Assembly (NCBI GenBank): GCA_017405965.1
Contig: JAFQZK010000022.1
Span: 124,001-188,000, forward strand
DNA: 64,000 nt
Direction: 5' to 3'
Origin: Muribaculaceae bacterium
GTDB taxonomy: Bacteria > Bacteroidota > Bacteroidia > Bacteroidales > Muribaculaceae
Positions 2,489 through 46,645 of this stretch are shown piece by piece. Both the position numbers and the translations under genes were made by a program. A model generated the notes under the pieces. That model had not been told where the DNA came from and did not search any database. It worked only from the letters and a program-made list of their open reading frames with translations. The stretch's first letter is position 1, and each line of letters opens with the position of its first letter.

Positions 2489-3994
2489 ATGAAACTTTCT
2501 AATATCATATTATTAGTTCTAACGTTAGTCCTGGGAGGGCTGACGGCTAACGCACAAAGCGGATTGAGGCCGCGCGGTGACGTGAATTGCGATTGGGAGG
2601 TAACTATCGCCGATTTCAACGCGATTATCGACTCCATCGTCGGTGGTGCAAAGTATCATGGGCTCTACAGCTACGCCACCGACGTCAACGGCGACCGCGA
2701 AATCAACATCGCCGACATCAACATGATCATCGACGCTATCATGGGTCACGAACTGCCGCCCATGCCTTCCTTCTCAGGCACAATGCCTGTCCTGTATATC
2801 AATACCGAGGGGCACCGCAACATCGACAGCAAGGACAGTGACGGATACCTGCACGCCGACTGGTGGCTGGACGCCATGGGCATTGAGGGTTACGACTCCA
2901 TCGGCTCGCCCGAAGCGCCTCTGGGCATGGTCATCAAGGGCCGTGGCAACTACACCTGGAATAACTTTGACAAGAAATCCTTCCGCATCAAGTTCGATAC
3001 CAAGCAGTCACCGTTGGGAATGAAGGAAAACCGCCACTTCTGCCTTCTTGCCCATGCCGACGATCACCTGGCCAAGCTCAAGAACACCATGGGGTTTGAG
3101 TTGAGTCGACGCCTAGGGCTCGCCTACACCCCCGAACAGGAACCCGTCGAGGTGGTGCTCAACGGCCAGTACATCGGCCTGTATTTCCTCGCCGATAAAA
3201 TACGCGTGGGTAAACACCGCGTCAATATCGAGGAACAGTCCGACAGGGAGACCGACCCGGCCTTGATTACCGGAGGGTGGTTACTTGAGCTGAACGACTT
3301 TGACGGCACCGTCATCTATGTGCAGGAACACTATATGGACGGCTGGGATTGGGACGACATGCTCTGTTTCCTGTCGGTCAGCCCCGAGTATCTGTCCAAC
3401 GCCCAGAATAATTACATCAAGACATTCCTCACCGACGCCAATGTCGCCATCCAGACCGATGACGTGTCCAGCACCGAATGGGAGAAGTACATCGACCTTG
3501 ACTCGCTGATCAATTACTACATCGTGGGCGAGATCATGGATGACATCGAGCACTTTGCAGGCAGCTGCTACATGCACAAGCACCGCGGAGACTCGACACG
3601 CCTGATATTTGGCCCGGTGTGGGACTTCGGCAACGCGTTCACGCGCGAGGCCCATTACGGACCCGATTCGGTGGGGCATTTCATCTATGAGCAACCGTCG
3701 TTCATCAGGTCACACTGGATCGAGGAGATGGCCAAGTTCACCCATTTTCAGGAGGTGCTCAAGAAACGATGGACCGAATTTTACGACTCGGGGTTCAACG
3801 GCTTGGACATCGACACCTTCATTGACGAGTTTGTGGAGCGCATCAGGCCGGCATACGAAGCCGACGTTGTACGCTGGCCAGACAATGGCATTGATAATCA
3901 GAAACGCGATTTCTCGCGATACATCCACGCTAAAATCGACTGGCTCAACACACAATGGAATAACAATAACCAGGAGAATGATTCCATCAACTGA
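2489..3994 (+). CDS. Secreted CotH-family protein with N-terminal dockerin-like module
   Basis: A signal peptide (about residues 1-22, ending TANAQ) is followed directly by two dockerin-like loop-helix units (residues 30-86: DVNCDWEVTIADFNAIID and TDVNGDREINIADINMIID). The remaining 400 residues match the CotH family, with MVIKGRGNYTW, KKSFRIKF, LNGQYIGLYFLADKI and the DFG-like FGPVWDFGNAF. CotH proteins are atypical kinases or pseudokinases first described in spore coats; in Bacteroidales they are secreted proteins of unknown target. Whether it phosphorylates anything is not known. The dockerin may tether it to another surface protein. The gene stands alone and converges on the C10 peptidase gene. 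A second CotH/dockerin protein lies at 32868-34799. Confidence 0.82.
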   Translation: MKLSNIILLVLTLVLGGLTANAQSGLRPRGDVNCDWEVTIADFNAIIDSIVGGAKYHGLYSYATDVNGDREINIADINMIIDAIMGHELPPMPSFSGTMPVLYINTEGHRNIDSKDSDGYLHADWWLDAMGIEGYDSIGSPEAPLGMVIKGRGNYTWNNFDKKSFRIKFDTKQSPLGMKENRHFCLLAHADDHLAKLKNTMGFELSRRLGLAYTPEQEPVEVVLNGQYIGLYFLADKIRVGKHRVNIEEQSDRETDPALITGGWLLELNDFDGTVIYVQEHYMDGWDWDDMLCFLSVSPEYLSNAQNNYIKTFLTDANVAIQTDDVSSTEWEKYIDLDSLINYYIVGEIMDDIEHFAGSCYMHKHRGDSTRLIFGPVWDFGNAFTREAHYGPDSVGHFIYEQPSFIRSHWIEEMAKFTHFQEVLKKRWTEFYDSGFNGLDIDTFIDEFVERIRPAYEADVVRWPDNGIDNQKRDFSRYIHAKIDWLNTQWNNNNQENDSIN

Positions 3995-4068
3995 TCATTG
4001 TACTGACGTTGCGTACCCAGTAAACACGCCGAGTCCTGGCCACTCGTTCATCACAAGCGTGACGTCCC

Positions 4069-6423
4069 TTAAGAGCCCAGAATCAAATCAATGACAGTGT
4101 TGATGTCGGCGATAGAAACCTCGCCGTCACCGTTGACGTCGCCATCAGGATTTTGAATACCTCTCTGTATGAAGTCAATAACGGCATTGACATCGGCAAT
4201 CGACACTTCACCATCCTTGTTCACGTCGCCACGCACAACGGTGTTGGGGAAAATGACCGTACAGGTGTTGACACCGGTGAAATCTATCTGATCGCCATTG
4301 CTATAGTAGAAGGCCATGCAGAAGTATTTCCAGCCATCTACCACATTATCGAAATGGAACACCAGATTGGTTGACGCATTGGGCGCCAGCGTCACACGCT
4401 GGTCAAAAGCCTGCACCATAGTGCCCGTATTTCCATAAACACTCTTGTAGAGCCTGACCGAGATATCCTCGTCGTAGGTCGCCGTTCCGGAATTGGTCAC
4501 CCTGACTTGAACGACAAATTCCTTGTCATTAATGATGCGATTACCAAAATCACTGAGATTGGTCACTAAAGCCGAACCCGTCACCTTGGCTGAAGGCATG
4601 TTGGAGATAAATATGGTTTCAGTAGCCAGGATATTGGTGCCATCCTCGTCAAGCGTAAACTTGAGCGTCTTCGTTCCTATAGTTTTGGGCACATAACGCA
4701 TCGTCACCAACCCTCGTTCATTCTGGCCCACATCGATAAATCCCATCGACACAAGTTCAGTGCCTTCATACACATAGATGACATCGTTACGCGTATAGCC
4801 CTTGTTGGTCAAGTCAAGGGTGAAATCCACTGGTCTGCCCTTGTGCATCGTGCCATCGGAACGGACGTTGTTGAGCTGATAGACGGGTGTTGTCGAAACG
4901 CCATGGCCGATTACCGTACAATTGTTGCCACTGATTGCGACCTCGATGTAATTGATATCGGCACCGTTGCACTGTTTCCAATCATTGGCATAGGGCTTAC
5001 TGTAGATGGGAATTATGCGGAATGTGCCGCTGGTGATGCCGCCGCCGAACGACAAGGTCCTAGTGGGGCGGAAGTAATACCAACTGCTCAGGCTCTCTTT
5101 ATTCCCGGGTTCCATGACCTTGACCAAGGAGTTTCCACGATACAAGCCCCAAGCGTAGTCAAATGCGATTTCACCATCGCTGCAGTTCAGGAAGTGACTC
5201 TCTTGAGTTACCGTGAAGTCTTGACTGGACGACGTGCGGGTGCCGGTATATTCCTTCACTTCAACAAACTTGTTGAAGACCTCAAGTTCAGGATTGCCCG
5301 ACGATTGCGGGCGCGGCTGAATGCCCGCTATGATGGCTTGGTCACAGATGTAACCATAGGCGCCGCTGGCACTGCCTGTTCCTTGCAGATCGGGATTGAG
5401 CACACTGAGCAGGAAATAGCCGTTACCTCTTCCGTTCCATCCCCAGTTGATGTGGAACCTGCCGTTACCGTCGAAACCATCGCACACAAAGGCATGGCCT
5501 CCCGAAGCCTTACGGCCACGGTAGATGACCGGACGGCGTGCAGTCAACTCTTCCAGAATCACATTCTCCCATTGCTCGCTGGTGTAGAAACGACGCTGAA
5601 GACTCTTGACCTTGGGGGAATAATCAAAAAAGCGCTTCATCGCCATCGGGACATCGAAGGTTGATGCCGATGAAGAATTCTTGTCAAAATCCATTTCGAC
5701 CGACTGAGCGCAATACAACGACAGTTGTGAGGCAGCCCGGGCCGCAACGCTGCTGACGTCATCGGTGAGATAAGTGTCGCACATGGCACTCCAGTTGAAG
5801 TCCACTACAGGCAAGGACGGCATACTCAGGCTCGAGGTTTCGGTCACATAGGCGGGAATATCCATACTGGGGCGTGGCGGCCACTTCCAGTAGTACATCA
5901 CCTGAGCCATTGCTGTTGCTACGCAACCCACCACGGCTTTGCTGCCGTCGGACAACGTGGGGAACAAGATGTTGTATGGGGAATTCTGTGACCATTGGGC
6001 TCGCATCAGCGGCGCAATCGGACGTGAGGCGCCGATGTGGGTAGCAATCTCAGTGTCCTCGCCGAGGGCGGCAATCTGATCAGCGTAGCCATCGAGCCAA
6101 TCCTGCAACGCCTCGGGGATGTCGTTCCAGTCAAAGGTACCGTTGTCGCTGTAGCCCAACACTGCGGGCACCCTGTCGTCACCGGCTACGATGACATATC
6201 CGCCATCGGCACGATCGGCATTGAACACATAGTAGGCCGACGTGCCGCTGACATCTTGTGATGGTGCCTTATGGGCTAAGCGGACAGCAGTCACAGGGCG
6301 GACGCTGGCCGACATGAAATTCTGGGCTATCACCCTGGCTGCGTTCTCATTGACAGCATCGGCCCATGCCGAGCTGAACACCATCAAACATATCAAAAAG
6401 GTAAGGGTTCGTGATACTTTCAT
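4069..6423 (-). CDS. Secreted C10-family (streptopain-like) cysteine peptidase with C-terminal dockerin-like module
   Basis: The 784-residue protein has a signal peptide (to about residue 21) and an inhibitory propeptide of the Spi type. The peptidase domain has the catalytic cysteine in VVGCVATAMAQ (Cys167), the histidine in SGGHAFVCDGF (His310) and the Asn/Trp segment FHINWGWNG (326-329). Middle domains are beta-sandwich-like, with an N-terminal-half spacing similar to Bacteroides fragipain-like and Porphyromonas/Prevotella C10 enzymes. The last 55 residues are two dockerin-like units (GDVNKDGEVSIADVNAV and GDVNGDGEVSIADINTV). It should be an extracellular protease, active after loss of the propeptide. 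It is transcribed alone, divergent from the SusA-like gene. Confidence 0.9.
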   Translation of the reverse strand: MKVSRTLTFLICLMVFSSAWADAVNENAARVIAQNFMSASVRPVTAVRLAHKAPSQDVSGTSAYYVFNADRADGGYVIVAGDDRVPAVLGYSDNGTFDWNDIPEALQDWLDGYADQIAALGEDTEIATHIGASRPIAPLMRAQWSQNSPYNILFPTLSDGSKAVVGCVATAMAQVMYYWKWPPRPSMDIPAYVTETSSLSMPSLPVVDFNWSAMCDTYLTDDVSSVAARAASQLSLYCAQSVEMDFDKNSSSASTFDVPMAMKRFFDYSPKVKSLQRRFYTSEQWENVILEELTARRPVIYRGRKASGGHAFVCDGFDGNGRFHINWGWNGRGNGYFLLSVLNPDLQGTGSASGAYGYICDQAIIAGIQPRPQSSGNPELEVFNKFVEVKEYTGTRTSSSQDFTVTQESHFLNCSDGEIAFDYAWGLYRGNSLVKVMEPGNKESLSSWYYFRPTRTLSFGGGITSGTFRIIPIYSKPYANDWKQCNGADINYIEVAISGNNCTVIGHGVSTTPVYQLNNVRSDGTMHKGRPVDFTLDLTNKGYTRNDVIYVYEGTELVSMGFIDVGQNERGLVTMRYVPKTIGTKTLKFTLDEDGTNILATETIFISNMPSAKVTGSALVTNLSDFGNRIINDKEFVVQVRVTNSGTATYDEDISVRLYKSVYGNTGTMVQAFDQRVTLAPNASTNLVFHFDNVVDGWKYFCMAFYYSNGDQIDFTGVNTCTVIFPNTVVRGDVNKDGEVSIADVNAVIDFIQRGIQNPDGDVNGDGEVSIADINTVIDLILGS

Positions 6424-6534: not shown

Positions 6535-6566
6535 TTTGGCGATTACAAGAAATAGTCTTATTTTTG
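6535..6566 (+). promoter_or_regulatory. Promoter of the SusA-like gene
   Basis: TTTG at 6535-6538 and TATTTTTG at 6559-6566 are separated by 20 bases, which fits the Bacteroidetes -33/-7 architecture. Transcription would begin near 6572, 30 bases before the ATG at 6602. Confidence 0.7.
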
Positions 6567-6601
6567 CAGGTACAAATGAAAAAACCAATCTTGTAACCAA
6601 A

Positions 6602-8467
6602 ATGAAGAAGCTATTATTGATGCTTGCAGTGGCAATGGGAATATTCTCAGCCCAAGCAGCCAAGGTCAACGTTGACCGCATCGAGCCCACCGACTGGTAT
6701 GTGGGCATCAACAGTGTGCCCAGTGTGCAACTCATGGTGTACGGCAACGGCATCGGCAGTGCCGAGGTGAGCACTGCCTATCCCGGAGTGACCATCGACA
6801 GCGTGGTGAGGGTGGACTCGCCCAACTACCTGCTCGTGTACATGGACACCCGCAGCGCACAGCCCGGCACGATGGAACTCAAGTTCCAGCAGGGCAAGAG
6901 CAAAAAGACTGTGAAATACCAGCTCAAAGCCCGCGAAATGCGCGGCAGCGAGCGTAAGGGTTTCACTAATGCCGACGTGCTCTACATGCTGATGCCCGAC
7001 CGCTTTGCCGACGGCAATCCCGCCAACAATCAACTGCCCGGCATGGAAGCCTACAAGAACGACCGTACACAGCCCAGCCTGCGTCACGGCGGCGATATCG
7101 AGGGCATCCGCCAGCACATGGACTATTTCACCCAGCTCGGCGTGACCGCCCTGTGGTTCACTCCCGTGCTGGAGAACAACTCTCCCGACGGCCATGGCCA
7201 CTCGACCTATCACGGCTATGCCACGACCAATTACTACCGTGTGGACCCGCGCTTCGGCACCAACGAGGAATATCGCCTGCTGTGTGACGAGGCCCACAGC
7301 CGTGGTCTCAAGGTGGTGATGGACATGATCTTCAACCACTGCGGCGCCCACCATCCCTGGTTGAAAGACATGCCTTCCCATGACTGGTTCAACCAGCCTG
7401 ATTACAAGAACAATTACCTGCAGACGAGCTACAAACTCACGCCCGTGATGGACCCCTATGCCAGCGAGATCGACTTCAAGGAGACCGTCGAGGGCTGGTT
7501 CGTGCCCTCGATGCCCGACCTGAACCATCACAACATCCACGTGATGAATTACCTGATCCAGAACAGCATCTGGTGGATTGAGACCGTGGGCATCGACGGC
7601 ATACGCATGGACACCTACCCCTATGCCTACGCCGACGCCATGGCACGATGGATGAAGGTGCTCAACACCGAGTACCCCAACTTCAACGTCGTGGGCGAAA
7701 CGTGGGTCGAGAATCCGGCTTATACCGCTGCCTGGCAGAAAAACAACAAAATGGGCAAGCCCGAGAGCTACCTGCCCACGGTGATGGACTTCTCCTTCTA
7801 TGAGAAAATCGACAGTGCCAAGCACGAGGAAACCGACGGCTGGTGGCGTGGCTATAACCGCGTGTACAACAGCCTGTGCCACGACTACCTCTACCCCAAC
7901 CCCTCGAGTGTGATGGCCTTCATCGAGAACCATGACACCGACCGTTTCCTGCGCAATGGGCAAGATGTCCCCGCCCTCAAACAGGCGCTCGCCCTGCTGC
8001 TCACCATCAAGCGTATCCCGCAGCTGTATTACGGCACCGAGATACTGATGAACGGCACCAAGGAGGTGACCGACGGCAACGTGCGCAAGGACTTCCCCGG
8101 CGGGTTCCCCGGTGACGTGCACAACGCGTTCACTGCCGAGGGGCGCACGCCAGCCCAGAACGACATGTTCAACTGGCTGAGCGCTCTGCTGCACTGGCGT
8201 CAAGGCAACGATATCATCATCAAGGGCAAGATGACCCAATTCATCCCCTACAACGGCATCTATGTCGTTGCTCGCACCTACAAGGGCCGCCATGCCGTGA
8301 CCATTATCAACGGCACCACCCAACAACGCCAGATGAAACTCGACCGCTACAGTGAGGTGTTCGGCGATGCCGCCGTTGCACACGACGTGACGACAGGACA
8401 GCTCGTCAGCCTTGCCGACGGCGCTCTCACCCTGCCGCCGCGCGCTACCCTCATTCTCGAGTTTTAA
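6602..8467 (+). CDS. susA: GH13 cyclomaltodextrinase/neopullulanase, SusA-like
   Basis: This is a periplasmic-type alpha-glucan hydrolase acting on imported maltooligosaccharides, cyclodextrin or pullulan. The 621-residue product starts MKKLLLMLAVAMG (signal peptide to about residue 19), followed by the N-terminal domain of cyclomaltodextrinases (KVNVDRIEPTDWYVGI), the GH13 barrel and a C-terminal beta domain. Catalytic residues are Asp337 (GIRMDTYPYA), Glu366 (VVGETW) and Asp445 (FIENHDTDRF). An earlier in-frame ATG at 6536 lies inside the promoter and is rejected. It lies at the end of the starch locus but on the opposite strand from the susC operon, so it is expressed from its own promoter. 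No LacI-type operator is seen upstream. Confidence 0.88.
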   Translation: MKKLLLMLAVAMGIFSAQAAKVNVDRIEPTDWYVGINSVPSVQLMVYGNGIGSAEVSTAYPGVTIDSVVRVDSPNYLLVYMDTRSAQPGTMELKFQQGKSKKTVKYQLKAREMRGSERKGFTNADVLYMLMPDRFADGNPANNQLPGMEAYKNDRTQPSLRHGGDIEGIRQHMDYFTQLGVTALWFTPVLENNSPDGHGHSTYHGYATTNYYRVDPRFGTNEEYRLLCDEAHSRGLKVVMDMIFNHCGAHHPWLKDMPSHDWFNQPDYKNNYLQTSYKLTPVMDPYASEIDFKETVEGWFVPSMPDLNHHNIHVMNYLIQNSIWWIETVGIDGIRMDTYPYAYADAMARWMKVLNTEYPNFNVVGETWVENPAYTAAWQKNNKMGKPESYLPTVMDFSFYEKIDSAKHEETDGWWRGYNRVYNSLCHDYLYPNPSSVMAFIENHDTDRFLRNGQDVPALKQALALLLTIKRIPQLYYGTEILMNGTKEVTDGNVRKDFPGGFPGDVHNAFTAEGRTPAQNDMFNWLSALLHWRQGNDIIIKGKMTQFIPYNGIYVVARTYKGRHAVTIINGTTQQRQMKLDRYSEVFGDAAVAHDVTTGQLVSLADGALTLPPRATLILEF

Positions 8468-8471
8468 CCTT

Positions 8472-8660
8472 TAACGTGAGTTCATTAAAAATAGATCGTT
8501 GATATTGAATTCATTCGCTATGTAGAGACGCAAAATTTTGCGTCTCCAATCGTTAAGCATTACCAAATGTTGACCTAGAGACGCAAAATTTTGCGTCTCT
8601 ACTGGCCATTTGGCCACTAACCCACTGAGATATAGAATAGATTTCGTCGAACTCACGTTA
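8472..8660. repeat. Intergenic inverted-repeat element A (MITE-like) with two palindromes
   Basis: TAACGTGAGTTC (8472-8483) is inverted at 8649-8660. ACCTT flanks both sides (8467-8471 and 8661-8665), a possible 5-bp target duplication. Inside are two copies of a palindrome with half-site GAGACGCAAAA (8525-8546 and 8576-8601). It sits directly after the susA-like stop codon. Related elements are at 13657-13887 and 49729-50009. Confidence 0.75.
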
Positions 8661-8683
8661 ACCTTTACATTCACGTCATCAAC

Positions 8684-8722
8684 AAAGTGTGCCATCAGGG
8701 ATAGTCCCGATGGCACACTTTT
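8684..8722. terminator. Bidirectional terminator between convergent genes
   Basis: AAAGTGTGCCATC (8684-8696) pairs with GATGGCACACTTT (8709-8721/22), giving a 13-bp stem with A-rich and T-rich flanks. It serves the SusA-like gene and the galactanase gene. Confidence 0.85.
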
Positions 8723-8739
8723 GCTTATTTGAGAAAAGT

Positions 8740-10095
8740 TTACTCAGCGAATTTCTTGAGTTCGTAGAGGGCAGGCGTCGCGCGTCCTGTCTCATGATCC
8801 CACAGGCCGGCATTGTACCAGGCATCGTTGACGTGCAACTGGGTCCAGTAGCTGCCGCCCAGGCCATACTCGTTGGCCTCGGGGAACCACCAGAAGAGGC
8901 CCTTGACGCGGGCATACTGTCCGAGTTTTGCAATCAGGTCGGCAGTAAATTGCTTTTGTCCTGCATAGGTCAGCGGCCAGGTTGATGAGAAGTCCTGATC
9001 ACCCACCTTGTACTTGTAGCTGTAACCCGTCTCGACGATCATGATATCCTTGTCCTGGTACGAGTTACTCACGTTGTTCAGGGCATTGGTGAGCGTCGTC
9101 AAGTTGCCGTGATAGTAAGGATAGTAACTCAAGCCGATGATGTCATAGTCCACCTGCTTGCTGCGCATCTGGTTATAGAAGTTGAGCAGGATGTTGAGTT
9201 TGGCAACACGCTCGGTGTGCAAGATGATCTTAGCCTTGGGGCACTCCTCGCGGCAGGCACGGCCGGCAGCCTTGAGCAGATTGGCAAAACGCTCCCAATT
9301 GGTCTCGTCATTGATGTAGCACTTCTTGAGGTCGCCGGCAGGTGTTCCCACGGGGCCCCACAGCATGCCGTAGCTGATCTCGTTGCCCGTCTGGATATAG
9401 TCTGGCGTGGCACCGGCGGCTTTGAGGGCACGCAGGCAGTCGCGAGTGTATTCATACACTTTCTGTGTCAATTCTTCGTCATCCAGGTCGGCCCATGCGG
9501 CAGGCGTGTACTGCTTCACGGGGTCGGCCCAGCTGTCGCTGTAGTGGAAATCGAGCATGAACTTCATGCCGGCAGCCTTGATGCGGGCGCCCAGCACCTT
9601 GACGGTGTCGAGGTTCTGGATCACGCCCTGACCCATGTCGGCAGCAGATGCGTTCTCGGGGTTGACGAACAGGCGCACACGGGCGGCATTCCAACCCTGC
9701 TGCTTGAGCCAGGGGATGACGTCGTCGATGATCTGGCCGTTCACGTCATAGTAATGGGCTGTGCGTATGTTATAGCGTTGCAGGGCCATCAGCTGGTGGG
9801 CCTCATACTTGGTGAGCATCGAGATGTCACCGCCCACGACATACCCGTTGTCGGGCTCAACACCGCCGCCCAGAATGATGTCAATGACAGCATTCACGTC
9901 GGCAATGCCCACCTCGCCGTCATTGTTCACGTCGCCCTCACTGTCCACGTCACCGGCCAATATCATGTCGATGACAGCGTTCACATCGGCGATGGTGACC
10001 TCACCGTCACCATTCACATCGCCCATAACAACGGCATTGGCGCCGAACGATGTCAGCGCCATTGCCATTAAAAGGATTGTATATAGCCTTGCCAT
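8740..10095 (-). CDS. GH53 arabinogalactan endo-beta-1,4-galactanase with N-terminal dockerin-like module
   Basis: The enzyme hydrolyses beta-1,4-galactan side chains of pectic arabinogalactan type I. After a signal peptide (about residues 1-21) come two dockerin-like units at 25-76 and then the GH53 barrel from about residue 85. The acid/base Glu239 is in YIQTGNEISYG and the nucleophile Glu355 in IMIVETGYSY; ARVRLFVNP and LDFHYSDSWADP are family motifs. It has no lipobox. The start codon follows the amylase stop by only four bases, so the two are co-transcribed and probably translationally coupled. A galactanase inside a starch-type locus is unexpected. Confidence 0.92.
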   Translation of the reverse strand: MARLYTILLMAMALTSFGANAVVMGDVNGDGEVTIADVNAVIDMILAGDVDSEGDVNNDGEVGIADVNAVIDIILGGGVEPDNGYVVGGDISMLTKYEAHQLMALQRYNIRTAHYYDVNGQIIDDVIPWLKQQGWNAARVRLFVNPENASAADMGQGVIQNLDTVKVLGARIKAAGMKFMLDFHYSDSWADPVKQYTPAAWADLDDEELTQKVYEYTRDCLRALKAAGATPDYIQTGNEISYGMLWGPVGTPAGDLKKCYINDETNWERFANLLKAAGRACREECPKAKIILHTERVAKLNILLNFYNQMRSKQVDYDIIGLSYYPYYHGNLTTLTNALNNVSNSYQDKDIMIVETGYSYKYKVGDQDFSSTWPLTYAGQKQFTADLIAKLGQYARVKGLFWWFPEANEYGLGGSYWTQLHVNDAWYNAGLWDHETGRATPALYELKKFAE

Positions 10096-10099
10096 ATCG

Positions 10100-12166
10100 T
10101 TATGCCTTCAAAATCATGTCGATAACCGCATTCACGTCGCTGATGCCAACCTCGCCGTCACCGTTTACGTCGCCGGCATCGCTGGGGTTACCCGAGAGAA
10201 TCATGTCGATAATCGCGTTGATGTCGCTGATGCTGACCTCACCGTCACCGTTCACGTCGCCAGCCACCTTCTCCAGATAAGGCAGGAACTCGGCGGTGAT
10301 GTTCTTCACCTGATACTTGTTGGTCTGAGTCGTTACCTCAAAGAAGGAGGTCTTGTTGATATAGGTCACATCCTCGGTCTGGTGTTCACCGGCAGTGGTG
10401 CCGCCCTGGTTGAACACAAAGTTCATGTAATAGTCCTTGCCAGTGATCTGATAGGTATGGCAGTAGAACTTGACGCCGCCCACAACCTTGGTCTCGGTGA
10501 TGGTCTGGCCGGGCCAGTTGCCGTTGAACTGCCTGTCGCTGCTGTCCCAAGTATAGTAGTTCACGCGGGGCCAATTATTGGGAGCTGCAGTGGGATCCTT
10601 CAGATAGACGGTGATTTCATAGGGCTCAAACGATGCGTTGTCAATCTCATAATGACGGGTGATGACACCGCTCACTGCGCCACCGATCAACAGACCCACC
10701 TTAAGCGTCGTGGCCTTGTTGATGGTGATTGTGCTGCCGTCGGCCACACGCGTACCGTTGCTGGCACTGGGCGTGCTGCCGTCAAGGGTATAGACGAGCT
10801 GAGCACCGTCGGTCTGGCTCACTGCGGTGAGCTTCACGGTGATGGTTCCCTCATAGTCTCCGCTGGGCTTGCTCACCCATGCGGTCTCGGTATCCTTGCT
10901 CAGGGCCAGACGGTAGTTGGTGCCACTGGCAACGATTACATAGGTAGCGGGAATCGCATAGGACTCGCTGCCCATGGCTGCCATCAAAGAGCCACGGGTA
11001 CCTATGGTGCGCTGCACGTAGTAATTCACCGTGGGGCTGTTAGCCTGATTAAAGGATGTGCTGGTGTTGGTGATACCTGCAAGCTGGCGAGCATAAATCA
11101 TCTGCTTGATGCTCTCCTTGTAGTCCATCCAGTGCTTCAGGAAGATACAGGGAGTGCCGGGCATCGCGAGCATGAAGGCATTGGCAGCCTCGATGTTGTT
11201 GCGGATAGGATCATTCTGGTTGTTGGCATCACGATACTGAGTGTCGTGATTCTCGACAAAGGTCACCGAGTAGCGCTTGTAGTTGGAGGCCATGTTCAGA
11301 CCCTTGCTGCTCGAGGAAGCAAGGCTGGTCCAACGGTTGTTGTTGACGGCGTCACGAATGACGTAGCGGAAGGGGAAGTCAAAAGCGGCGCTCTGTACCA
11401 CACCGTTCACCTTGGTACCGTCAATCCAACCCTTGACAACGCCCTCGTTACCGTCCCAGTACTCGCCCACCGAGAACTGCACGTCGCACGATGAGTTGTA
11501 CATTCCCGTGTAGTAGGCCGAGTATCCCTTGACCATATCGTAACGGAAGCCCGCGTAGCCCAGGTCATCGAGCAGCATCTTCACATAGGCCTTGACGATG
11601 TCCTGCACGTTGGTGCTGCGGTGATCCAGGTCGCGCATGCCGCCCCAGTCTTCACCGGTGTCGTTGTTGGGACTCAGTGACTTGCCGTTCTGGTTAGCCC
11701 AGTTGAGGGTCGCGCCACCGTCATCGTTGCGGCAGATGTCGGTCGACAGCATATTGTAGGTCACACCTTTATAGGTCTCGCTCGGGAAAGTCACCCAGTC
11801 GTTGATGGTTTTACGATGATTGATGACAACGTCGGCAATGGTGCCGATGCCCTTGCTCTTGAAAGTGTTGATCATCGAGCGCAACTGCGACTCGCTGCCG
11901 AATGAGCTGTTGTAGTTGGTGAACCAGTACAAGTCGTCATAGCCCATCGACGTGCCGCCGCAGTTAGCGCTCTGCGGAATCCACACGAGTTTGAAGAATT
12001 CAGACAACTCATCGGCCTGTGACTCGAGTTTGGGCCAGCGGGTCTCGTTGAAAGAGTCCCAATAGAAGCCCTGCAACATCACGCCGTCATAGTTGGCGGG
12101 CCAGCCCTGTGCCAAAGTCAGCAAGGGCATCAACATAACCAGTGCTGTAGTAAAAATCTTTTTCAT
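10100..12166 (-). CDS. Secreted GH13 alpha-amylase with starch-binding region and C-terminal dockerin-like module
   Basis: The 688-residue protein cuts internal alpha-1,4 bonds of starch outside the cell. It has a signal peptide (ending TLAQG), a GH13 barrel with Asp210 (GFRYDMVKGY), Glu235 (FSVGEYWDG) and Asp308 (FVENHDTQ), and a calcium-type NHRKT motif near residue 116. After the catalytic domain there is a chitobiase-C-like beta domain (LVYTLDGSTPSASNG) and then a starch-binding-like domain (ITVYLKDPT..NWPRVNYYTW..NWPG). Two dockerin-like units end the protein. It heads the two-gene unit with the GH53 galactanase. A LacI-type operator lies upstream at 12280-12291. Confidence 0.92.
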   Translation of the reverse strand: MKKIFTTALVMLMPLLTLAQGWPANYDGVMLQGFYWDSFNETRWPKLESQADELSEFFKLVWIPQSANCGGTSMGYDDLYWFTNYNSSFGSESQLRSMINTFKSKGIGTIADVVINHRKTINDWVTFPSETYKGVTYNMLSTDICRNDDGGATLNWANQNGKSLSPNNDTGEDWGGMRDLDHRSTNVQDIVKAYVKMLLDDLGYAGFRYDMVKGYSAYYTGMYNSSCDVQFSVGEYWDGNEGVVKGWIDGTKVNGVVQSAAFDFPFRYVIRDAVNNNRWTSLASSSSKGLNMASNYKRYSVTFVENHDTQYRDANNQNDPIRNNIEAANAFMLAMPGTPCIFLKHWMDYKESIKQMIYARQLAGITNTSTSFNQANSPTVNYYVQRTIGTRGSLMAAMGSESYAIPATYVIVASGTNYRLALSKDTETAWVSKPSGDYEGTITVKLTAVSQTDGAQLVYTLDGSTPSASNGTRVADGSTITINKATTLKVGLLIGGAVSGVITRHYEIDNASFEPYEITVYLKDPTAAPNNWPRVNYYTWDSSDRQFNGNWPGQTITETKVVGGVKFYCHTYQITGKDYYMNFVFNQGGTTAGEHQTEDVTYINKTSFFEVTTQTNKYQVKNITAEFLPYLEKVAGDVNGDGEVSISDINAIIDMILSGNPSDAGDVNGDGEVGISDVNAVIDMILKA

Positions 12167-12214
12167 AGTCTCTTGTATTTTGGGTTAAGTTATAATCTGT
12201 TGAATGTAAATATG

Positions 12215-12243
12215 CAAATATAGCAAATTATCGGCAATTCCAA
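12215..12243 (-). promoter_or_regulatory. Promoter candidate of the amylase-galactanase unit
   Basis: On the minus strand TATATTTG (12215-12222) fits the -7 box, with TTG (12241-12243) 18 bases upstream. A second -7-like box TATTTTTG is at 12253-12260; with that choice the -33 region would fall on the operator at 12280-12291. Confidence 0.5.
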
Positions 12244-12279
12244 CTTTTCACGCAAAAATATCTGCTAAAAAAATCAAAT

Positions 12280-12291
12280 GCAATCGTTTGC
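12280..12291. promoter_or_regulatory. LacI-family operator upstream of the amylase gene
   Basis: GCAATCGTTTGC is a near-perfect inverted repeat of the GCAAnCGnTTGC type bound by LacI/PurR-family regulators. The same 13 bases with the preceding T occur at 21841-21853, in front of the LacI gene and the susC operon. Confidence 0.65.
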
Positions 12292-12316
12292 AAACCCATA
12301 GCTCAAGTTCTCAACA

Positions 12317-12348
12317 CAAAAAAAGAGGCGCAACCAAGTTGCACCTCT
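12317..12348 (-). terminator. Rho-independent terminator of the 12482-13558 gene
   Basis: Read on the minus strand, AGAGGTGCAAC pairs with GTTGCGCCTCT and is followed by seven T residues. It lies beyond the heptamer array that follows the gene. Confidence 0.9.
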
Positions 12349-12372
12349 TCAATTTCATTGGCAGCCAGACGG

Positions 12373-12481
12373 CAGTGAACAGTTAACAGTGAACAGTTAA
12401 CAGTGAACAGTGAACAGTTAATAGTGAATAGTTAACAGTGAATAGTTAACAGAGAACAGTTAACTGCTAATGGCTAACAGT
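12373..12481. repeat. Heptanucleotide array (CAGTTAA/CAGTGAA) abutting a stop codon
   Basis: About fifteen 7-base units of the form CAG[TT/TG/AG]AA run from 12373 into the stop codon (12482-12484) of the gene on the minus strand. Units differ by one or two bases. The array lies between the stop codon and the terminator, in the 3' untranslated region. Confidence 0.85.
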
Positions 12482-13558
12482 TTACTTCACAACCTTAACA
12501 GCGTTGGTGGTGCCGTCGGTGTAGGTGGTAACCACGATGGTCAGACCCTCGGCCTGCTGCATCTCCTGGCCAGCCATGTTGAAGTAGCGTACGCCGGCAA
12601 CGGTCTTGCCACTCATCAGCTCGTCGAGAGCGGTAGCTACGGTGAACTCATAAGCTACATCCTGGCTCCTGTTGTCGCCGATGAAGGCGTAAGCCTCGAT
12701 GCGAACCTTCTCACCGTTGTTCTCGAACCAGATCTCACCCTCGATGCCCTCGTACAGGGTCCAGTCGGTCCTCAGAACCCACTCCTCGGTAACGGGATCC
12801 CAAATCAGGACGCGATACATGATCTCGCTGCCCTCGGTGGTCGGAGTGATGCCAACACCGTAACCGGTGATACCGTCGATGGTGTAACCCTGGAAGACGG
12901 GAGCACCAACAGCAACGGGATCAATAGTAGGATCAACGGGAATCGAACCAGCCTCATAGGTGAAGGATGCCATGGGCAGGAAGTCATAGGTTCCATTGGA
13001 TGAGTTGTAGGCATAATAGCAGCTGTTGTAACCGATAACATCACCGAAGAAATAGGTTGAGCCATAGCTTCCAGCTTCAATCACTTTGCACTCAACTAGC
13101 AGGTTGCCACCCTGGTAGTTGAACGGTTCATCCAGGTTGAACATCATGAAATCGTCACCTTCAACGGGAACTGTTGTGGCAACGGGGGTTGCGCCAACAA
13201 TTTCGGCAACAGTAACAAATCCAGCCTCGTCAACAGTCTTGAGCGACAATTGGATAGTGGCATTCGAGAAATTGATGTAGTCATAGTAGGCAGCATCATC
13301 AATGTCAGCATAATTCTCAAAATAATAAGCAGTTGTGTAGAATTTCACACCTGTAATCTGAGAGCCGGCCATCTCGCTAAGCAACTCGGCAGGATAAATC
13401 ATCTGACCAATGGTGCCCACTTCATCAGCATAGAGACCATAGATGGGAATAGTGCTGGCTTCGTAGCCATATTCACCACCGTCACACACTGTCAACACAT
13501 TAGCTTGGGCAGCAAATGCCATTGCAGCCACAGCGATAAGAGTAAAAAATTTCTTCAT
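12482..13558 (-). CDS. Secreted protein of unknown function with T9SS-like C-terminal domain
   Basis: The 358-residue protein has a signal peptide (AFAAQANV, cleavage near 19) and an all-beta body rich in Tyr and acidic residues (YYFENYADIDDAAYYDYINFS). No enzyme motif is recognised. The last about 45 residues (VAGVRYFNMAGQEMQQAEGL..VVTTYTDGTTNAVKVVK) resemble type IX secretion sorting domains common in Prevotella and Muribaculaceae, so it is probably exported to the surface. It lies between the susF-like gene and the amylase gene on the same strand but has its own promoter and terminator. A link with starch use is only positional. Confidence 0.72.
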   Translation of the reverse strand: MKKFFTLIAVAAMAFAAQANVLTVCDGGEYGYEASTIPIYGLYADEVGTIGQMIYPAELLSEMAGSQITGVKFYTTAYYFENYADIDDAAYYDYINFSNATIQLSLKTVDEAGFVTVAEIVGATPVATTVPVEGDDFMMFNLDEPFNYQGGNLLVECKVIEAGSYGSTYFFGDVIGYNSCYYAYNSSNGTYDFLPMASFTYEAGSIPVDPTIDPVAVGAPVFQGYTIDGITGYGVGITPTTEGSEIMYRVLIWDPVTEEWVLRTDWTLYEGIEGEIWFENNGEKVRIEAYAFIGDNRSQDVAYEFTVATALDELMSGKTVAGVRYFNMAGQEMQQAEGLTIVVTTYTDGTTNAVKVVK

Positions 13559-13633
13559 GATAAAAACGCATTTAATATAAGGTGAATAAAAAAGTTATAC
13601 TATCGATACAAGTTCAGCTATTCAATTTGCCCA

Positions 13634-13664
13634 CAAAAATACAAAAAAATAATAATTAACGCAA
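13634..13664 (-). promoter_or_regulatory. Promoter of the 12482-13558 gene, -33 box inside a repeat element
   Basis: On the minus strand TATTTTTG (13634-13641) is the -7 box, and TTG (13662-13664) lies 20 bases upstream. The TTG is part of the inverted end of element B, whose end reads TAACGCAAGTTC here while other copies have TGA or TAA in place of CAA. Confidence 0.55.
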
Positions 13665-13887: not shown

Positions 13888-13970
13888 ATTATTTAGTATA
13901 AGACTAGAAAAACTTTCGTGAGCGGGTGAAAAACACGCTATCTGCTGCTGTATCTCCCCTGCAGATAACG

Positions 13971-14010: not shown

Positions 14011-14031
14011 TATAAGAATCCGTCACTTGTA

Positions 14032-32867: not shown

Positions 32868-34799
32868 ATGAAAAAGTATATACAATTAACATGGCTGCTG
32901 CTCGTGCTGGCTGTTGTACCGGCACGGGCCTCCATCTATATGGTTGGAAACAACCCCTTTGGCGACTGGAATCCCGGCAATGGCGTCGAGATGACCGACA
33001 AGGGCAACGGCATCTACTCGCTGACGGTCAACATCAGCGGGACGGTGTGGTTTGTGTTCGCCGACGGGCAGAGCAGCGACTGGAACGTTTTCAACGCCAA
33101 CTACCGCTACGGCCCTAATGGCAACGGCAGCCAGGAGGTGACCGTGGGGCCGTCTTACACGACTCAAAAGAGCAACAACAACCACTCCTACAAGTTCACG
33201 GGTGGCGGCATGGATTACACGTTCACGTTCAACCTTAACAACCTCACTTTCAGCGTCAAGGAGTATGAGGAACCTCCCCTGCCCGACCCGTTCTCCCTGC
33301 AAGTGGGCGACGTGAACGGCGACGGAGAGATCAACATTTCGGATGTCAATGCTTTGATCAACATTCTGCTGGGCAGCTTTGCCAACTATGACACACGCCA
33401 ACGCAGCGACGTGAACTACGACGAAGAGGTCAACATCAGCGACATCAACCTGTTGATCAACTTCCTGTTAGGCGGAAAATTCCCCGAACGGATCAAAGAA
33501 GGATATGACTATGTGTGGGACGACGATGTCATCCCCGAGATACATATCGAGGTGAGCCTCGACGAGTGGAACAGGCTGCTGGCACTGTATGATGCCAATG
33601 CGTTCACGACCCAGTATGTCAAGGCAAACATCTCATTTGAAAAGGACGGCGAGACCACTGTCATCGACGACGTGGGATTGCGCCTCAAGGGCAACACATC
33701 GCGCCGTCGACCGGAGAATTGGTACGGTGAGACGCATCATCGCAACAACACCGACTGGCATCATGCCCACTTCGGGGTGAACCTGCGCAAGTATGTCGAA
33801 GACGACATCCATACCATCCAGGGGGTGCGCAAACTGCACCTCAAGTGGTTCAAGGACGACCCCGCCTATGTGCGTGAGAAATTCTGTTATGACTTGTTCA
33901 AGAGGGCCGGTGTGTGGACAGCGATACGCGATATTTACTGCCGCCTGTGGATTCATGTCGAAGGTGACAGCCAAGAAGCCTATTATGGTGTGTATGAGTT
34001 GTTGGAACCCATCGACAAGCGTTACCTGAAGGACCGAAAAGACCGTTTCGGCTCCAACGACGGCTACCTGTGGAAATGCCGTAACGGCGCTGCAGGACTC
34101 AATAATCCCAACGGTGACATCTGGTATGACGACGATACCGACGACCGCCATGCCTACACGCTCGAGACCAAGGTCGAAGAGTTTGAAAACGCCCGTGCAC
34201 AACTGGTGAATTTCATGGGTCGCGTCTGCAACCTGAGCGACAACGCATTCTACACCTGGATTCAGCAGGCTACCGATGTGGATCTGCTGCTCAAAACCTA
34301 TGCCGTCAATGTCGCCTTAGGCATGTGGGACGACTATTGGAACAATGCCAACAACTACTACATCTACTTCAACGGCACAGAGTTGACAGGCTACAAGTTC
34401 TTCTTCATCCCCTACGATTACGACAATACATTGGGCACCAGTATGCGCACCGGCAATCAGGACGATGCCGGGCGTCAAGACCCGCTTCATTGGGGCCGTG
34501 ACAACAATCCGCTCATTGCACGCATACTCAAGTTCGATGATTTCAAGGCCAAGTATGTCGCCTACCTCAAGGAACTGGTCGATGCCAGGAATGCACTGAT
34601 GGATCGCGCCTCGTCACAGGCCCGCATCCGCGCATGGCAACAACGCATCGAGCAATATGTCAACAACGACACGGGCGAGGAAACCGTCATCGAGGACAAA
34701 CCCGCCTCGTGGGGCAACCACAGCGAGTACAACCTGTTGAAGAACAACAGCGACAACTTTTTCAACGCCAAAGCCGCCAGCATCAACGCCCTCCAATAA
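32868..34799 (+). CDS. Secreted CotH-family protein with SusE/F-like N-domain and central dockerin-like module
   Basis: The 643-residue protein has a signal peptide (VVPARAS), then a beta-sandwich like those in SusE/SusF (IYMVGNNPFGDWNPGNGVEM, residues 23-132), two dockerin-like units at 147-203 (GDVNGDGEINISDVNALIN and SDVNYDEEVNISDINLLIN), and a CotH domain (VGLRLKGNTSRRRP, LHLKWFKDDPAYVREKFCYDL, YYGVYELLEPIDKRYL, FFIPYDYDNTLGTS). The dockerin lies between two domains, unlike the terminal position in other proteins here. A surface role is likely; kinase activity and target are unknown. It converges on dnaX. Confidence 0.82.
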   Translation: MKKYIQLTWLLLVLAVVPARASIYMVGNNPFGDWNPGNGVEMTDKGNGIYSLTVNISGTVWFVFADGQSSDWNVFNANYRYGPNGNGSQEVTVGPSYTTQKSNNNHSYKFTGGGMDYTFTFNLNNLTFSVKEYEEPPLPDPFSLQVGDVNGDGEINISDVNALINILLGSFANYDTRQRSDVNYDEEVNISDINLLINFLLGGKFPERIKEGYDYVWDDDVIPEIHIEVSLDEWNRLLALYDANAFTTQYVKANISFEKDGETTVIDDVGLRLKGNTSRRRPENWYGETHHRNNTDWHHAHFGVNLRKYVEDDIHTIQGVRKLHLKWFKDDPAYVREKFCYDLFKRAGVWTAIRDIYCRLWIHVEGDSQEAYYGVYELLEPIDKRYLKDRKDRFGSNDGYLWKCRNGAAGLNNPNGDIWYDDDTDDRHAYTLETKVEEFENARAQLVNFMGRVCNLSDNAFYTWIQQATDVDLLLKTYAVNVALGMWDDYWNNANNYYIYFNGTELTGYKFFFIPYDYDNTLGTSMRTGNQDDAGRQDPLHWGRDNNPLIARILKFDDFKAKYVAYLKELVDARNALMDRASSQARIRAWQQRIEQYVNNDTGEETVIEDKPASWGNHSEYNLLKNNSDNFFNAKAASINALQ

Positions 34800-43857: not shown

Positions 43858-45114
43858 ATGAAGAAAGTTTTTTCATTATTTGCACTTTCCCTGCTGACCA
43901 TGTCGGCATGGGCTGCTAACACCTATGTGAAGGTAACTAGCGTTGACCAGCTGGAAGTTGGCAAGAAGTACATCATTGTCAATGAGGAAAAAAGTCGCGC
44001 TATGGGACCAATCACTGGTGGTAGCGGTACCAACTATGGTAGCTATGTTGACATCACCATCGAGGATGGTGTTATCGACATCGAGGGCACCAACGTAGTT
44101 GAACTGACCGCACATGAGAGCGGTGAATACACATACGGTCCCACGTGGGCTTTTTCCCTCGATGAAGGCGTTTACATTCTCTGGACTTCAGGCAATTCGC
44201 TGAATAGCGTCAGCGGCCCTGGTTCCACCGGCGCCAACGCCAGCGGTGCAAAGTGGATCCCCACGTTGACCGACGATGGCGTTATCTTGAAGAACAACCA
44301 AGACATCAACCGCATTCTTCAGTACAATGCTAGTGCTCCCCGTTTCGCTTGCTACACGAGCACACAGAAGCCTGCTGTTCTCTATATGCAGGGTGCTCCT
44401 GAGGACGAAGGTATTACTACCCTGGCCCAGGCAAACGCTCTGGACGATGACGAGGCCTTTGCCTTTAACGGCAACGCCGTTGTTACCGTCTGCAAGAATG
44501 GCTACCTGTTCTTGCGTGACGAGAGCGGCTTTAGCATGATTTCTGGCGTTGTAGACACTTTTGAGAACGGCCAAGTGCTGAACCCGGGCTGGGAAGCCAC
44601 CAAGACCAGCAACGACGGTTGGGTTAGGTTCACCGAAGCAAGCGGCCTCATTGCCAGCGATGAGACCAATCCCGACCTGGCAGCGGCCATCGTTCCCGAC
44701 AGTGTCGATGAGAGCTTGCTCAATGCTTATGTTTGCATCCAGAATCAGGTACCCAGTTTTTTCCCTGCCCGTAGTTTTGTGCTTCCTAACGGCTCGAGAA
44801 TTCCTAAGACCGAAAGCTTGTGGGCCGGTAATGCTGACGCCACAACTGGCAATTACAATGTCTATGGTGTTATTGTCAAGATTAACGGCCAGTTGATGTT
44901 CAATATCATTGATTACGAGGATTATGTTGCGCCCTTCATTCCTGGTGACGTAAACAGTGATGGTTTCGTAAACATCAGTGATGTGACCATGCTGGTCAAC
45001 CTGTTGATGAGCGAAGGCGAGATGCCTCCTGCCGCCGATTTCAACCAAAATGGCACAACAGACATCACCGACGTGACGGCCCTGATCAACTATCTGATGA
45101 GCATCGAGAATTAA
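43858..45114 (+). CDS. Secreted protein of unknown function with C-terminal dockerin-like module
   Basis: The 418-residue protein has a signal peptide (TMSAWAANTY) and an all-beta body with no recognised enzyme motif. The opening YVKVTSVDQLEVGKKYIIVNEE and the segments AFSLDEGVYILW and RILQYNASAPRFACYTSTQKPAVLYM resemble short carbohydrate-binding or lectin-like domains seen in Bacteroidales surface proteins. The C-terminus has two dockerin-like units (GDVNSDGFVNISDVTMLVN and ADFNQNGTTDITDVTALIN). It is transcribed from its own promoter and terminator. Confidence 0.75.
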   Translation: MKKVFSLFALSLLTMSAWAANTYVKVTSVDQLEVGKKYIIVNEEKSRAMGPITGGSGTNYGSYVDITIEDGVIDIEGTNVVELTAHESGEYTYGPTWAFSLDEGVYILWTSGNSLNSVSGPGSTGANASGAKWIPTLTDDGVILKNNQDINRILQYNASAPRFACYTSTQKPAVLYMQGAPEDEGITTLAQANALDDDEAFAFNGNAVVTVCKNGYLFLRDESGFSMISGVVDTFENGQVLNPGWEATKTSNDGWVRFTEASGLIASDETNPDLAAAIVPDSVDESLLNAYVCIQNQVPSFFPARSFVLPNGSRIPKTESLWAGNADATTGNYNVYGVIVKINGQLMFNIIDYEDYVAPFIPGDVNSDGFVNISDVTMLVNLLMSEGEMPPAADFNQNGTTDITDVTALINYLMSIEN

Positions 45115-45254: not shown

Positions 45255-45289
45255 CCGATTAACAGAATCACTAAATAACTCTACGGCCT

Positions 45290-46645
45290 ATGAAAAAGGT
45301 TTTCTTCTTTCTCACTACTCTCTTAGTTGGGCTCACAGCGCAAGCTCTGCCCGCCGATGCGGTTGACAACGCCACAGCTCAAAACCCGAGGTACACCTAC
45401 AACAGCGCTACCGGTGCACTCACACTCAACTGGGGCGAGTTCAACAACTGGGACAACTGGGACAACGACGTGACAAACACAGCCGTCAAGAGCGTCACCG
45501 CCACGAGCGAGGTAAGTTTCACTGGCGACTGTTCACAGCTGTTCTATAATTTCAACCAATGCGAGAGCATGGACCTGGGCCGTGTCAATACCAGCGGGAT
45601 GACAAATGCAAAAAGAATGTTCCGTGATTGCTCCAGTCTGACATCGCTAGACTTGTCGGATTGGAACGTCGCCAATGTCACTGACATGTATGAAATGTTT
45701 TGCTACTGCGAGAATTTGACTTCGCTCGACCTGTCGGGATGGAACACCGCCAGTGTCATCGACATGGGCTTTATGTTCAACTACTGCTTGAACCTGACCT
45801 CACTCGACCTGTCGGGATGGAACACCGCCAATGTCATCGACATGTACTACATGTTCAATAGTTGCGAAAGCTTAAGATCACTCGACCTGTCGGGATGGAA
45901 CACCGCCAATGTCACCACTACGGTCCAGATGTTCTATGGTTGCCGGAGTCTGACCTCACTTGATTTATCGGGTTGGGATACAGGCCATGTCACGAGTATG
46001 GGAGGGATGTTCTCGGGGTGCTCGGGCTTGACATCGCTCGATATCTCGAGTTGGAACACTGCCAATGTCGACTATATGGATAATATGTTCTCGGGATGTA
46101 CGGGGCTCAAATCGCTCAACCTCTCGAACTGGAATACTGCCAACGTCTCGAGCTTGGAATATATGTTCTCAGATTGTTCAGGCTTGACCTCGCTCGACAT
46201 CTCGGGTTGGAACACTTCAAATGTCTGGTTCATGACCAACATGTTTGCCCGCTGTACGAGCCTGACCACCATCTATGCCGGCTCAGGCTGGAGCACTGAA
46301 CTTGTCTTTGGCGAATGGTCTAAAGGCTTGTTTACCGGCTGCACCGCACTGGTGGGCGGAATGGGTACTGTCTATGACGAGAACCACACCGACAAGGCCT
46401 ACGCACGCATCGACGGCGGTCCTGACCATCCCGGCTACTTCACCGCCAAGTCCGCAGCCATGCGCGGCGACGTGAACGGCGACAACATCGTCAACATCAG
46501 CGATGTGACCGTTCTAATCAACTATCTGCTCACTGGTGATGCTTCCTCAATCAATCTTGAAGCCGCCGACTGCAGCCAAGACACTAATGTCAACATCAGC
46601 GATGTGACCGTTCTTGTCAACTACCTATTCTTCCAGACTTGGTAA
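45290..46645 (+). CDS. BspA-type leucine-rich repeat (DUF285) surface protein with dockerin-like C-terminus
   Basis: The 451-residue protein has a signal peptide (LVGLTAQALP) and nine tandem 26-residue repeats of the DUF285 type (SLDLSGWNTANVxxM..MFxxCxxL) from about residue 88 to 325. Proteins of this group bind host or bacterial surface components, for example fibronectin in Tannerella BspA. The last 55 residues are two dockerin-like units (GDVNGDNIVNISDVTVLIN and CSQDTNVNISDVTVLVN). Several repeats are nearly identical in DNA, so repeat number may vary. It converges on the Sir2 gene. Confidence 0.88.
   Translation: MKKVFFFLTTLLVGLTAQALPADAVDNATAQNPRYTYNSATGALTLNWGEFNNWDNWDNDVTNTAVKSVTATSEVSFTGDCSQLFYNFNQCESMDLGRVNTSGMTNAKRMFRDCSSLTSLDLSDWNVANVTDMYEMFCYCENLTSLDLSGWNTASVIDMGFMFNYCLNLTSLDLSGWNTANVIDMYYMFNSCESLRSLDLSGWNTANVTTTVQMFYGCRSLTSLDLSGWDTGHVTSMGGMFSGCSGLTSLDISSWNTANVDYMDNMFSGCTGLKSLNLSNWNTANVSSLEYMFSDCSGLTSLDISGWNTSNVWFMTNMFARCTSLTTIYAGSGWSTELVFGEWSKGLFTGCTALVGGMGTVYDENHTDKAYARIDGGPDHPGYFTAKSAAMRGDVNGDNIVNISDVTVLINYLLTGDASSINLEAADCSQDTNVNISDVTVLVNYLFFQTW

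Follow-up and report, generated by a model that had tools for sequence, protein, structure and literature searches.

Why should a protease, a galactanase-family enzyme, an amylase, two CotH proteins, a BspA-like protein and a protein of unknown function share one small module, and what would that module bind? The question is raised by a 64,000-nt stretch of a Muribaculaceae bacterium genome (contig JAFQZK010000022.1, positions 124,001 to 188,000), hereafter the window, in which seven secreted proteins between positions 2489 and 46645 carry paired units resembling dockerins. The initial annotation of this DNA had read the units as a modular, cellulosome-like logic applied to mixed cargo, had seen no cohesin or scaffoldin in the window, and had left the partner unknown, possibly a new kind of surface assembly. 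We found that the modules are indeed dockerins on unrelated protein families and that the window contains no cohesin-like domain by Pfam or by our own profile searches. A candidate partner is nevertheless present in the same genome, in the form of divergent cohesin-like domains on scaffoldin-like open reading frames (ORFs), just under the Pfam cut-off. We consider it likely, with a probability of about 0.72, that the seven window proteins belong to the cargo of a cohesin-dockerin assembly which an uncultured rumen Bacteroidales carries on its surface.

The host is a Gram-negative Bacteroidales, as its DnaX relatives, the SusC/SusD pairs detected in the window by Pfam and its SprA indicate. Over its full length, the DnaX encoded beside the cluster is 83, 78 and 75% identical to proteins of the uncultured rumen Bacteroidales metagenome-assembled genomes RUG11934, RUG12435 and RUG14590, and the next-nearest relative, from a Muribaculaceae metagenome-assembled genome, is 64% identical. 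On these grounds a Ruminococcus, which the number of dockerins had at first suggested, was rejected as the host.

Dockerins in the window and the genome

In a Pfam scan of 20 window ORFs, all seven named proteins exceeded the curated cut-off for Dockerin_1 (PF00404, 22.9 bits), and each has two calcium loops. Aspartate occupies positions 1 and 12 in all 14 loops. It also fills position 5 in 13 of them, with asparagine in the remaining one, and at position 3 there is asparagine in 13 loops and serine in the other. When all window ORFs of at least 80 aa were searched with a profile refined by iteration over dockerins of this genome, the same seven were returned and no eighth. Structural modelling, which the initial annotation had proposed as a refuting check, showed that the GH53 unit does fold as a dockerin: the 63-residue module was modelled at a predicted local distance difference test score of 86.6, and of 35 Foldseek rows 33 were entries for dockerins or cohesin-dockerin pairs (TM 0.55-0.75, normalised to query length), with a best E of 0.044 and no rows at E ≤ 0.001 for this short module.

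The genome-wide profile search that had also been suggested found at least 167 ORFs with 174 dockerin matches, as well as ten cohesin ORFs, in 805,802 sampled bases (the window and 86 further stretches, nearly all picked around matches). PF00404 gave at least 155 matches at E ≤ 0.01 in the whole genome, with 150 of 322 candidates scored; dockerin counts per genome are lower bounds in all samples. Among 147 complete ORFs with a dockerin and no cohesin, the module sits at the C-terminus in 126 cases, at the N-terminus in 13 and in the interior in 8, and PF00404 recovers it at E ≤ 1e-4 in 144. By a crude rule, 145 of the 147 have a signal-peptide-like start, compared to 83 of 359 control ORFs.

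The cargo is diverse. Pfam was run on the 147 ORFs in three batches with 25 of 28, 31 and 39 families listed, so all counts are minima: leucine-rich repeat (LRR) family LRR_5 at least 33, Peptidase_C10 at least 14, CotH at least 12, FGE-sulfatase at least 10, Peptidase_M6 at least 7, Peptidase_S8, alpha-amylase and CBM26 at least 6 each, endonuclease I at least 4, GH53 and GHL10 at least 2 each, and GH32 and peptidyl-arginine deiminase at least 1 each. No cellulase family, GH5, GH9 and GH48 included, is among the families listed. Function labels searched from window seeds proved loose (66 "BspA" versus 33 Pfam LRR_5) and were not used.

Within the window, the position of the module varies as originally described: it is N-terminal in the GH53 enzyme and the first CotH protein, central in the second CotH protein and C-terminal in the other four. 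Five of the dockerins belong to an N class and two to a T class, which are defined below. The first CotH-kinase-like protein (2489..3994, + strand; PF08757 7.1e-31) is secreted and carries an N-class dockerin (27.8 bits) at 2576..2740 (residues 30-84), with its two calcium loops. The C10 peptidase (4069..6423, − strand; PF01640 3.6e-58) has a Spi propeptide (PF13734) and an N-class dockerin (29.8 bits) at 4081..4230 (residues 732-781). The N-class dockerin of the GH53 enzyme, a member of the galactanase family (8740..10095, − strand; PF07745 7.4e-78; dockerin 25.3 bits), is the one modelled above and lies at 9874..10023 (residues 25-74).

The GH13 alpha-amylase (10100..12166, − strand; PF00128) carries an N-class dockerin (33.0 bits) at 10109..10264 (residues 635-686) and a CBM26-like domain whose PF16738 score of 26.0 bits is under the cut-off of 28.1. 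It adjoins a Sus-like starch locus (6536-22977) with a cyclomaltodextrinase-type GH13, SusC, SusD, an SusE/F-like protein and a LacI regulator, in which one amylase is dockerin-bearing. The second CotH-kinase-like protein (32868..34799, + strand; PF08757 6.2e-38) has an N-class dockerin (42.6 bits) at 33306..33470 (residues 147-201). Both T-class proteins lie further along the + strand. The protein of unknown function (43858..45114) matches PF00404 alone (47.6 bits; module at 44941..45096, residues 362-413), and the BspA-like, adhesin-like leucine-rich protein (LRR_5/DUF285; 45290..46645; PF03382 6.4e-101; PF13306) has its dockerin (50.2 bits) at 46466..46627 (residues 393-446).

Cohesin-like domains and T9SS-like tails

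The ten cohesin ORFs were identified with our own profile and include L120:6695-7372, L119:5354-7330, L119:7588-9696 and L121:1805-4990 (L numbers denote sampled stretches). Each has at most three cohesins, one of these weak, and nine of the ten also carry a dockerin. As their matches to the Pfam cohesin family PF00963 fall under its cut-off, we name these domains cohesin-like on the basis of profile and fold. One of them was modelled and has the cohesin beta-sandwich fold in two fold comparisons; the VIA comparison spans model residues 3-141, the cohesin half of the model rather than its dockerin half. The closest cohesin by sequence profile in a PDB sequence search is the Clostridium perfringens NagJ/NagH pair (PDB 2jh2, 2ozn; E 0.008), itself a non-cellulosomal use of the interaction. 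That the sub-threshold PF00963 matches are generic Ig-like sandwiches was rejected, as this search, the two fold comparisons and homologues that score above the cut-off point to cohesin.

The cohesin ORFs fall into a series of architectures. Three small ORFs consist of a signal peptide, a cohesin and a dockerin, and each adjoins a larger cohesin-dockerin-cohesin-tail ORF (L120, L121, L122). The large form also occurs without a small neighbour (L123), and three of the four large proteins contain LRR repeats. A pair of dockerin-cohesin-tail ORFs lies at L119, with LRR repeats in both members, and this pair is kept in all six sister species aligned. L124 encodes one cohesin and a tail without a dockerin. 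The dockerins on the small adaptors are of the T-class kind, and those of the L119 pair are one N class and one T class; the four large ORFs have internal dockerins of a third, VTDVV- or VGDYV-like type. On 15 cohesin ORFs scanned with Pfam we found LRR, Big2 and Flg_new_2 domains and one F5/8 type C domain (in genome G248), and no CBM3 or other cellulose-binding module.

Seven of the ten cohesin ORFs end in a tail resembling that of type IX secretion system (T9SS) substrates, and the other three end in a dockerin. Such a tail is present on 2 of the 147 dockerin-only ORFs, and a tail-profile search found none on the C10 protease of the window. The two, L185:1841-4195 and L190:11591-13903, both show sub-threshold deoxyribonuclease I similarity; the latter scores 24.0 bits with the T9SS tail model TIGR04183 in one scan and 18.4, which fails, as a whole protein. 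TIGR04183 reaches 22.1 in one genus member (cut-off 23) and exceeds the cut-off on four of seven cohesin ORFs scanned from other families: G121 (30.4 and 31.8), G231 (28.5) and G162 (26.9). A search for T9SS machinery, covering SprA and PorU-type sortases, found SprA_N (616.6 bits) and two sortases (921.6 and 699.2 bits, cut-off 420) in the genome. PorU-type sortase genes form a tandem pair at G000:C21:128983-137251, with a single-cohesin ORF (C21:121598) some 7 kb away, and a second SprA_N-like stretch at G000:C35:28226-28801, with one in-frame TGA, is apparently a fragment.

A C-terminal tail termed type B ends the protein encoded at 12482-13558 of the window (TYTDGT....KVVK). It is common to at least four other ORFs near dockerin genes (L177, L159) and to four cohesin ORFs, and is possibly an unmodelled T9SS tail family. 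Directly beside the L119 pair, L119:9878-13000 combines a loose similarity to the window GH13 seed with a type B tail.

Dockerin classes and their distribution

Of the 174 dockerin matches, 142 had both repeats parsed (32 were dropped), giving 140 unique sequences. These parses require D/N-type ligands at positions 1, 3, 5 and 12 and are therefore no test of the loops; positions 1 and 12 are nearly invariant, partly for this reason. Mutual information between repeats peaked at position 14 (z 29.5), followed by 11 (24.7), 18 (13.9), 20 (12.1), 10 (11.1), 7 (10.4), 16 (10.2) and 9 (7.0). It had z values of 2.7 to 3.8 at positions 5, 13, 15, 17, 19 and 21 and of -0.6 to 1.3 at 2, 3, 4, 6, 8 and 22. 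Mere relatedness of paralogues was rejected as the source of this matching, since the same sequences show no coupling at positions 2, 4, 6, 8 and 22. Positions 10 and 11 are described as specificity determinants in the relevant passages on known dockerins (PMC8063739). A shared cohesin partner whose interface is symmetric would produce such a pattern, though the pattern falls short of proof of binding.

Where position 14 is N or T in both repeats, 60 dockerins are T/T, 41 are N/N and none is mixed, compared to 48.8 mixed expected and a lowest mixed count of 30 in 10,000 shuffles. A looser N/T grouping yields one mixed dockerin. Because cargo dockerins thus form two classes whose repeats match each other, the cargo of this species is probably served by two cohesin specificities. 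Residue choice also varies with species, most at positions 10, 17, 9, 7 and 11 and hardly at 2, 4, 5, 6 and 8. This comparison used five genomes (107, 13, 7, 6 and 6 dockerins) out of eight with 145 unique dockerins in total, drew at most seven from each, left relatedness unmodelled and had small samples from the four sister species (6 to 13 unique each).

Dockerins and cohesins co-occur throughout the genus. Nine members have at least 153, 122, 71, 97, 72, 104, 60, 128 and 89 PF00404 matches and, in the same order, 16, 18, 6, 10, 10, 10, 5, 5 and 16 matches to a broader cohesin profile, A8 (E ≤ 0.01, weak matches included). Among 110 other genomes in a sample of the family, 17 had both, 18 dockerins only, 6 cohesins only and 69 neither (p 3e-6); in a sample of the order without the genome studied here, the counts were 27, 78, 5 and 183 (p 3e-9). 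Both p values overstate the association, since the genomes do not count as independent observations and many of the cohesin ORFs are themselves dockerin-bearing.

Larger scaffoldins occur in relatives. The sister species G059 and G118 encode ORFs with a signal peptide, six cohesins and a dockerin, adjoining a dockerin-cohesin-tail ORF. In G121, from another Bacteroidales family, adjacent ORFs with eight and five cohesins by our own profile both end in an above-cut-off TIGR04183 tail; PF00963 detects the five-cohesin ORF (58.8 bits) and does not see the other. Two of six A8-found cohesin ORFs from other families pass PF00963, the second being in G231 (34.6). ORFs in G162 and G358 have ten and five cohesins, respectively, both cut by the end of the stretch.

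G205, G226, G295, G229 and G384, from other Bacteroidales families, are rich in PF00404 matches, many of which start between profile positions 8 and 11; A8 detects no cohesin or a single one in them. The dockerin repeats of G205 and G226 look differently ordered; our own profiles gave partial matches in one stretch of each (12-15 bits, including a 12-bit cohesin fragment in G226) and no match in the other G205 stretch or the G295 and G384 stretches. These families possibly make a second, different use of dockerin-like repeats.

Weighing the assembly against alternatives and known systems

In the assembly that we propose, cargo (proteases, BspA/LRR adhesin-like proteins, CotH proteins, starch and galactan enzymes, nucleases) would leave the cytoplasm via signal peptides, each protein bearing one calcium-loaded dockerin and nearly always lacking a T9SS-like tail. 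Divergent cohesins on the small adaptors, the large cohesin-dockerin-cohesin-tail proteins and the LRR-dockerin-cohesin-tail pair would receive this cargo, each dockerin class presumably matching its own cohesins. The tail would place the cohesin protein at the outer surface, and SprA and PorU-type sortases are encoded in the genome; tail-less cargo may cross the outer membrane as a passenger of cohesin-tail carriers, by another route or in vesicles. Sister species use other dockerin motifs. A bolder version, which we regard as doubtful, is a sortase-free display: on many more than a hundred secreted proteins the dockerin would have taken the place of the T9SS tail, a few tail-bearing cohesin carriers would ferry folded cargo through the T9SS as passengers and then hold it, and two orthogonal dockerin codes per cell would be re-set between species.

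Several observations weigh against a cohesin-dockerin surface assembly. Physical binding, the pairing of classes with cohesins, the surface location and the passage of tail-less cargo across the outer membrane are inferred. PF00963 reaches at best 22.0 in this genome (cut-off 24.1) and missed four of the six other-family cohesin ORFs, including the eight-cohesin one. There are 15-16 cohesins for at least 167 dockerin ORFs, with no ORF carrying more than three. L208:1012-5712, an eleventh ORF, matches cohesin weakly and lacks both a recognised tail and a dockerin at its C-terminus. The seed sequences of the tail profiles came from the same cohesin proteins that these profiles score; no cohesin ORF of this genome reaches TIGR04183 at E ≤ 0.01, the model missed three of the seven from other families, and no NCBIfam model matches the type B tail protein of the window. 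The strong coupling at positions 7 and 9 has no cited contact. Co-occurrence is partly built in, as nine of the ten cohesin ORFs are themselves dockerin-bearing. G109, with at least 128 dockerins, has two strong cohesins and three weak matches. G001, from another genus of the family, has at least 31 dockerins and no cohesin by A8 (one stretch, L251, taken blind at a contig start, had no match with our own profiles), and the dockerin-rich genomes G205, G226, G166, G229, G384, G217 and G339 have none by A8 at E ≤ 0.001.

The shortage of cohesins in this genome and in G109 would also arise if the dockerins were real and bound the cohesins of other organisms, as has been speculated for R. albus in the relevant passage of PMC4035507, with the cohesin-like domains here linking only their own carriers. 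Self-assembly of that kind is possible, given that nine of ten cohesin ORFs have a dockerin and the large ones carry the third type. The three small adaptors and the conserved pair, however, bear dockerins of the cargo kind. In G059, G118, G039 and G087 many, though not all, dockerins on cohesin ORFs have their species' cargo motif, and the six-cohesin scaffoldins of G059 and G118 end in a cargo-like dockerin. Motifs that differ between species also fit a shared foreign partner poorly, and we regard borrowed scaffoldins as unlikely.

The near-exclusion of dockerin and tail on cargo, with two tailed ORFs in 147, and the C-terminal position of 126 of the 147 modules would likewise suit dockerins that bind no cohesin and serve as calcium-stabilised terminal caps or as sorting tags themselves. 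Such a role would not account for the coupling between repeats at recognition positions, the presence of two classes in a single genome or the dependence of motifs on species, and 21 of the 147 modules are N-terminal or internal; we consider it quite improbable. An ordinary cellulosome related to that of Ruminococcus flavefaciens is more improbable still. Strain FD-1 has a similar number of dockerins (222), with peptidases and LRR proteins in its cargo too, according to the pertinent part of PMC2930009, but the host here is a Bacteroidales with SusC/SusD and T9SS, GH5, GH9 and GH48 are missing from the families listed, and CBM3 from the 15 cohesin ORFs scanned. The cohesin-dockerin surface assembly thus remains our preferred reading.

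R. flavefaciens is Gram-positive, and in C. perfringens the NagJ/NagH enzymes are joined to each other, with no T9SS. Bensoussan et al. reportedly treated bovine rumen cohesins and dockerins in 2017, and that work may contain relevant cohesins. The FD-1 dockerin proteins fall into groups by recognition pattern, serpins and unknown proteins are also among them, and its scaffoldins combine cohesin and dockerin; as far as the pertinent part of that paper goes, the cargo there is for plant cell walls, whereas here we see a Bacteroidales with a T9SS-like anchor and protease, LRR, CotH and starch families (PMC2930009). A cellulosome-like complex is predicted for Candidatus Stygibacter (Cloacimonadota), in which C-terminal dockerins occur on S8 and C25 peptidases and glycosidases and a predicted scaffoldin has a surface-attaching C-terminal domain, with starch, chitin and protein, not cellulose, as proposed substrates. 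It belongs to another phylum, and the relevant passages name a single scaffoldin, four enzymes with dockerins and one halomucin-like protein that also bears one (PMC8542988); the system described here has at least 167 dockerin ORFs, two classes of cargo dockerin and several cohesin ORFs of small size, with relatives in the genus and in other families. The Limousia mucinolysome (PMC12997984) and the planctosome (PMC6461901; PMC8542988), in the parts of these articles that bear on it, are likewise cohesin-dockerin or cellulosome-like assemblies for non-cellulose substrates, in other phyla and with other cargo.

Rumen Bacteroidetes have been reported to carry both modules. Of the camel-rumen bins, bin 136 combines 5 dockerins with 1 cohesin gene and is counted with the bins in which two to four cohesins stand in tandem; for bin 129, 2 cohesins are listed, and for bins 49 and 58 there are none beside 11 dockerins (PMC6071333). 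Cohesin fragments have been assigned to Bacteroidetes (PMC4035507), and the role of dockerin modules in polysaccharide utilization loci of rumen Bacteroidetes was called "not defined yet" (PMC7480376). The relevant passages of these three reports describe no anchoring tail, adaptor series or dockerin classes; what differs here is a set of below-cut-off candidate cohesins in a dockerin-rich genome, with architectures and a recognition analysis. Most of the 33 cellulosome producers named in a 2024 genome survey belong to Acetivibrio, Ruminococcus, Ruminiclostridium and Clostridium, and in the available text "bacteroid" occurs in the references only (PMC11557425). A likely reason, in part, why rumen Bacteroidetes dockerins have lacked cohesins is seen in this genome, in which the candidate cohesins fall just under the Pfam threshold.

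Bacteroidetes dockerins and cohesins, non-cellulosic cargo and, in another phylum, a scaffoldin anchored by a C-terminal domain are thus already known from the passages cited. Given published non-cellulosic cohesin-dockerin systems, the Ca. Stygibacter scaffoldin (PMC8542988) and the rumen Bacteroidetes modules (PMC6071333), "a new kind" of surface assembly was too strong as a category; it holds as a variant. We found no description in the open-access literature searched of T9SS-tailed scaffoldins, such a cohesin ORF series or dockerin classes in Bacteroidales.

If the proposed assembly exists, large cohesin-dockerin assemblies for adhesion, starch and protein are at work in a Gram-negative gut genus, with the T9SS rather than a sortase or S-layer domains as the means of anchoring, and PF00963-based searches undercount such systems. 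The sequences named here make the role of these dockerins a matter for binding tests, and the dockerin codes that differ between the sister species would form a natural collection of use in orthogonal protein assembly.

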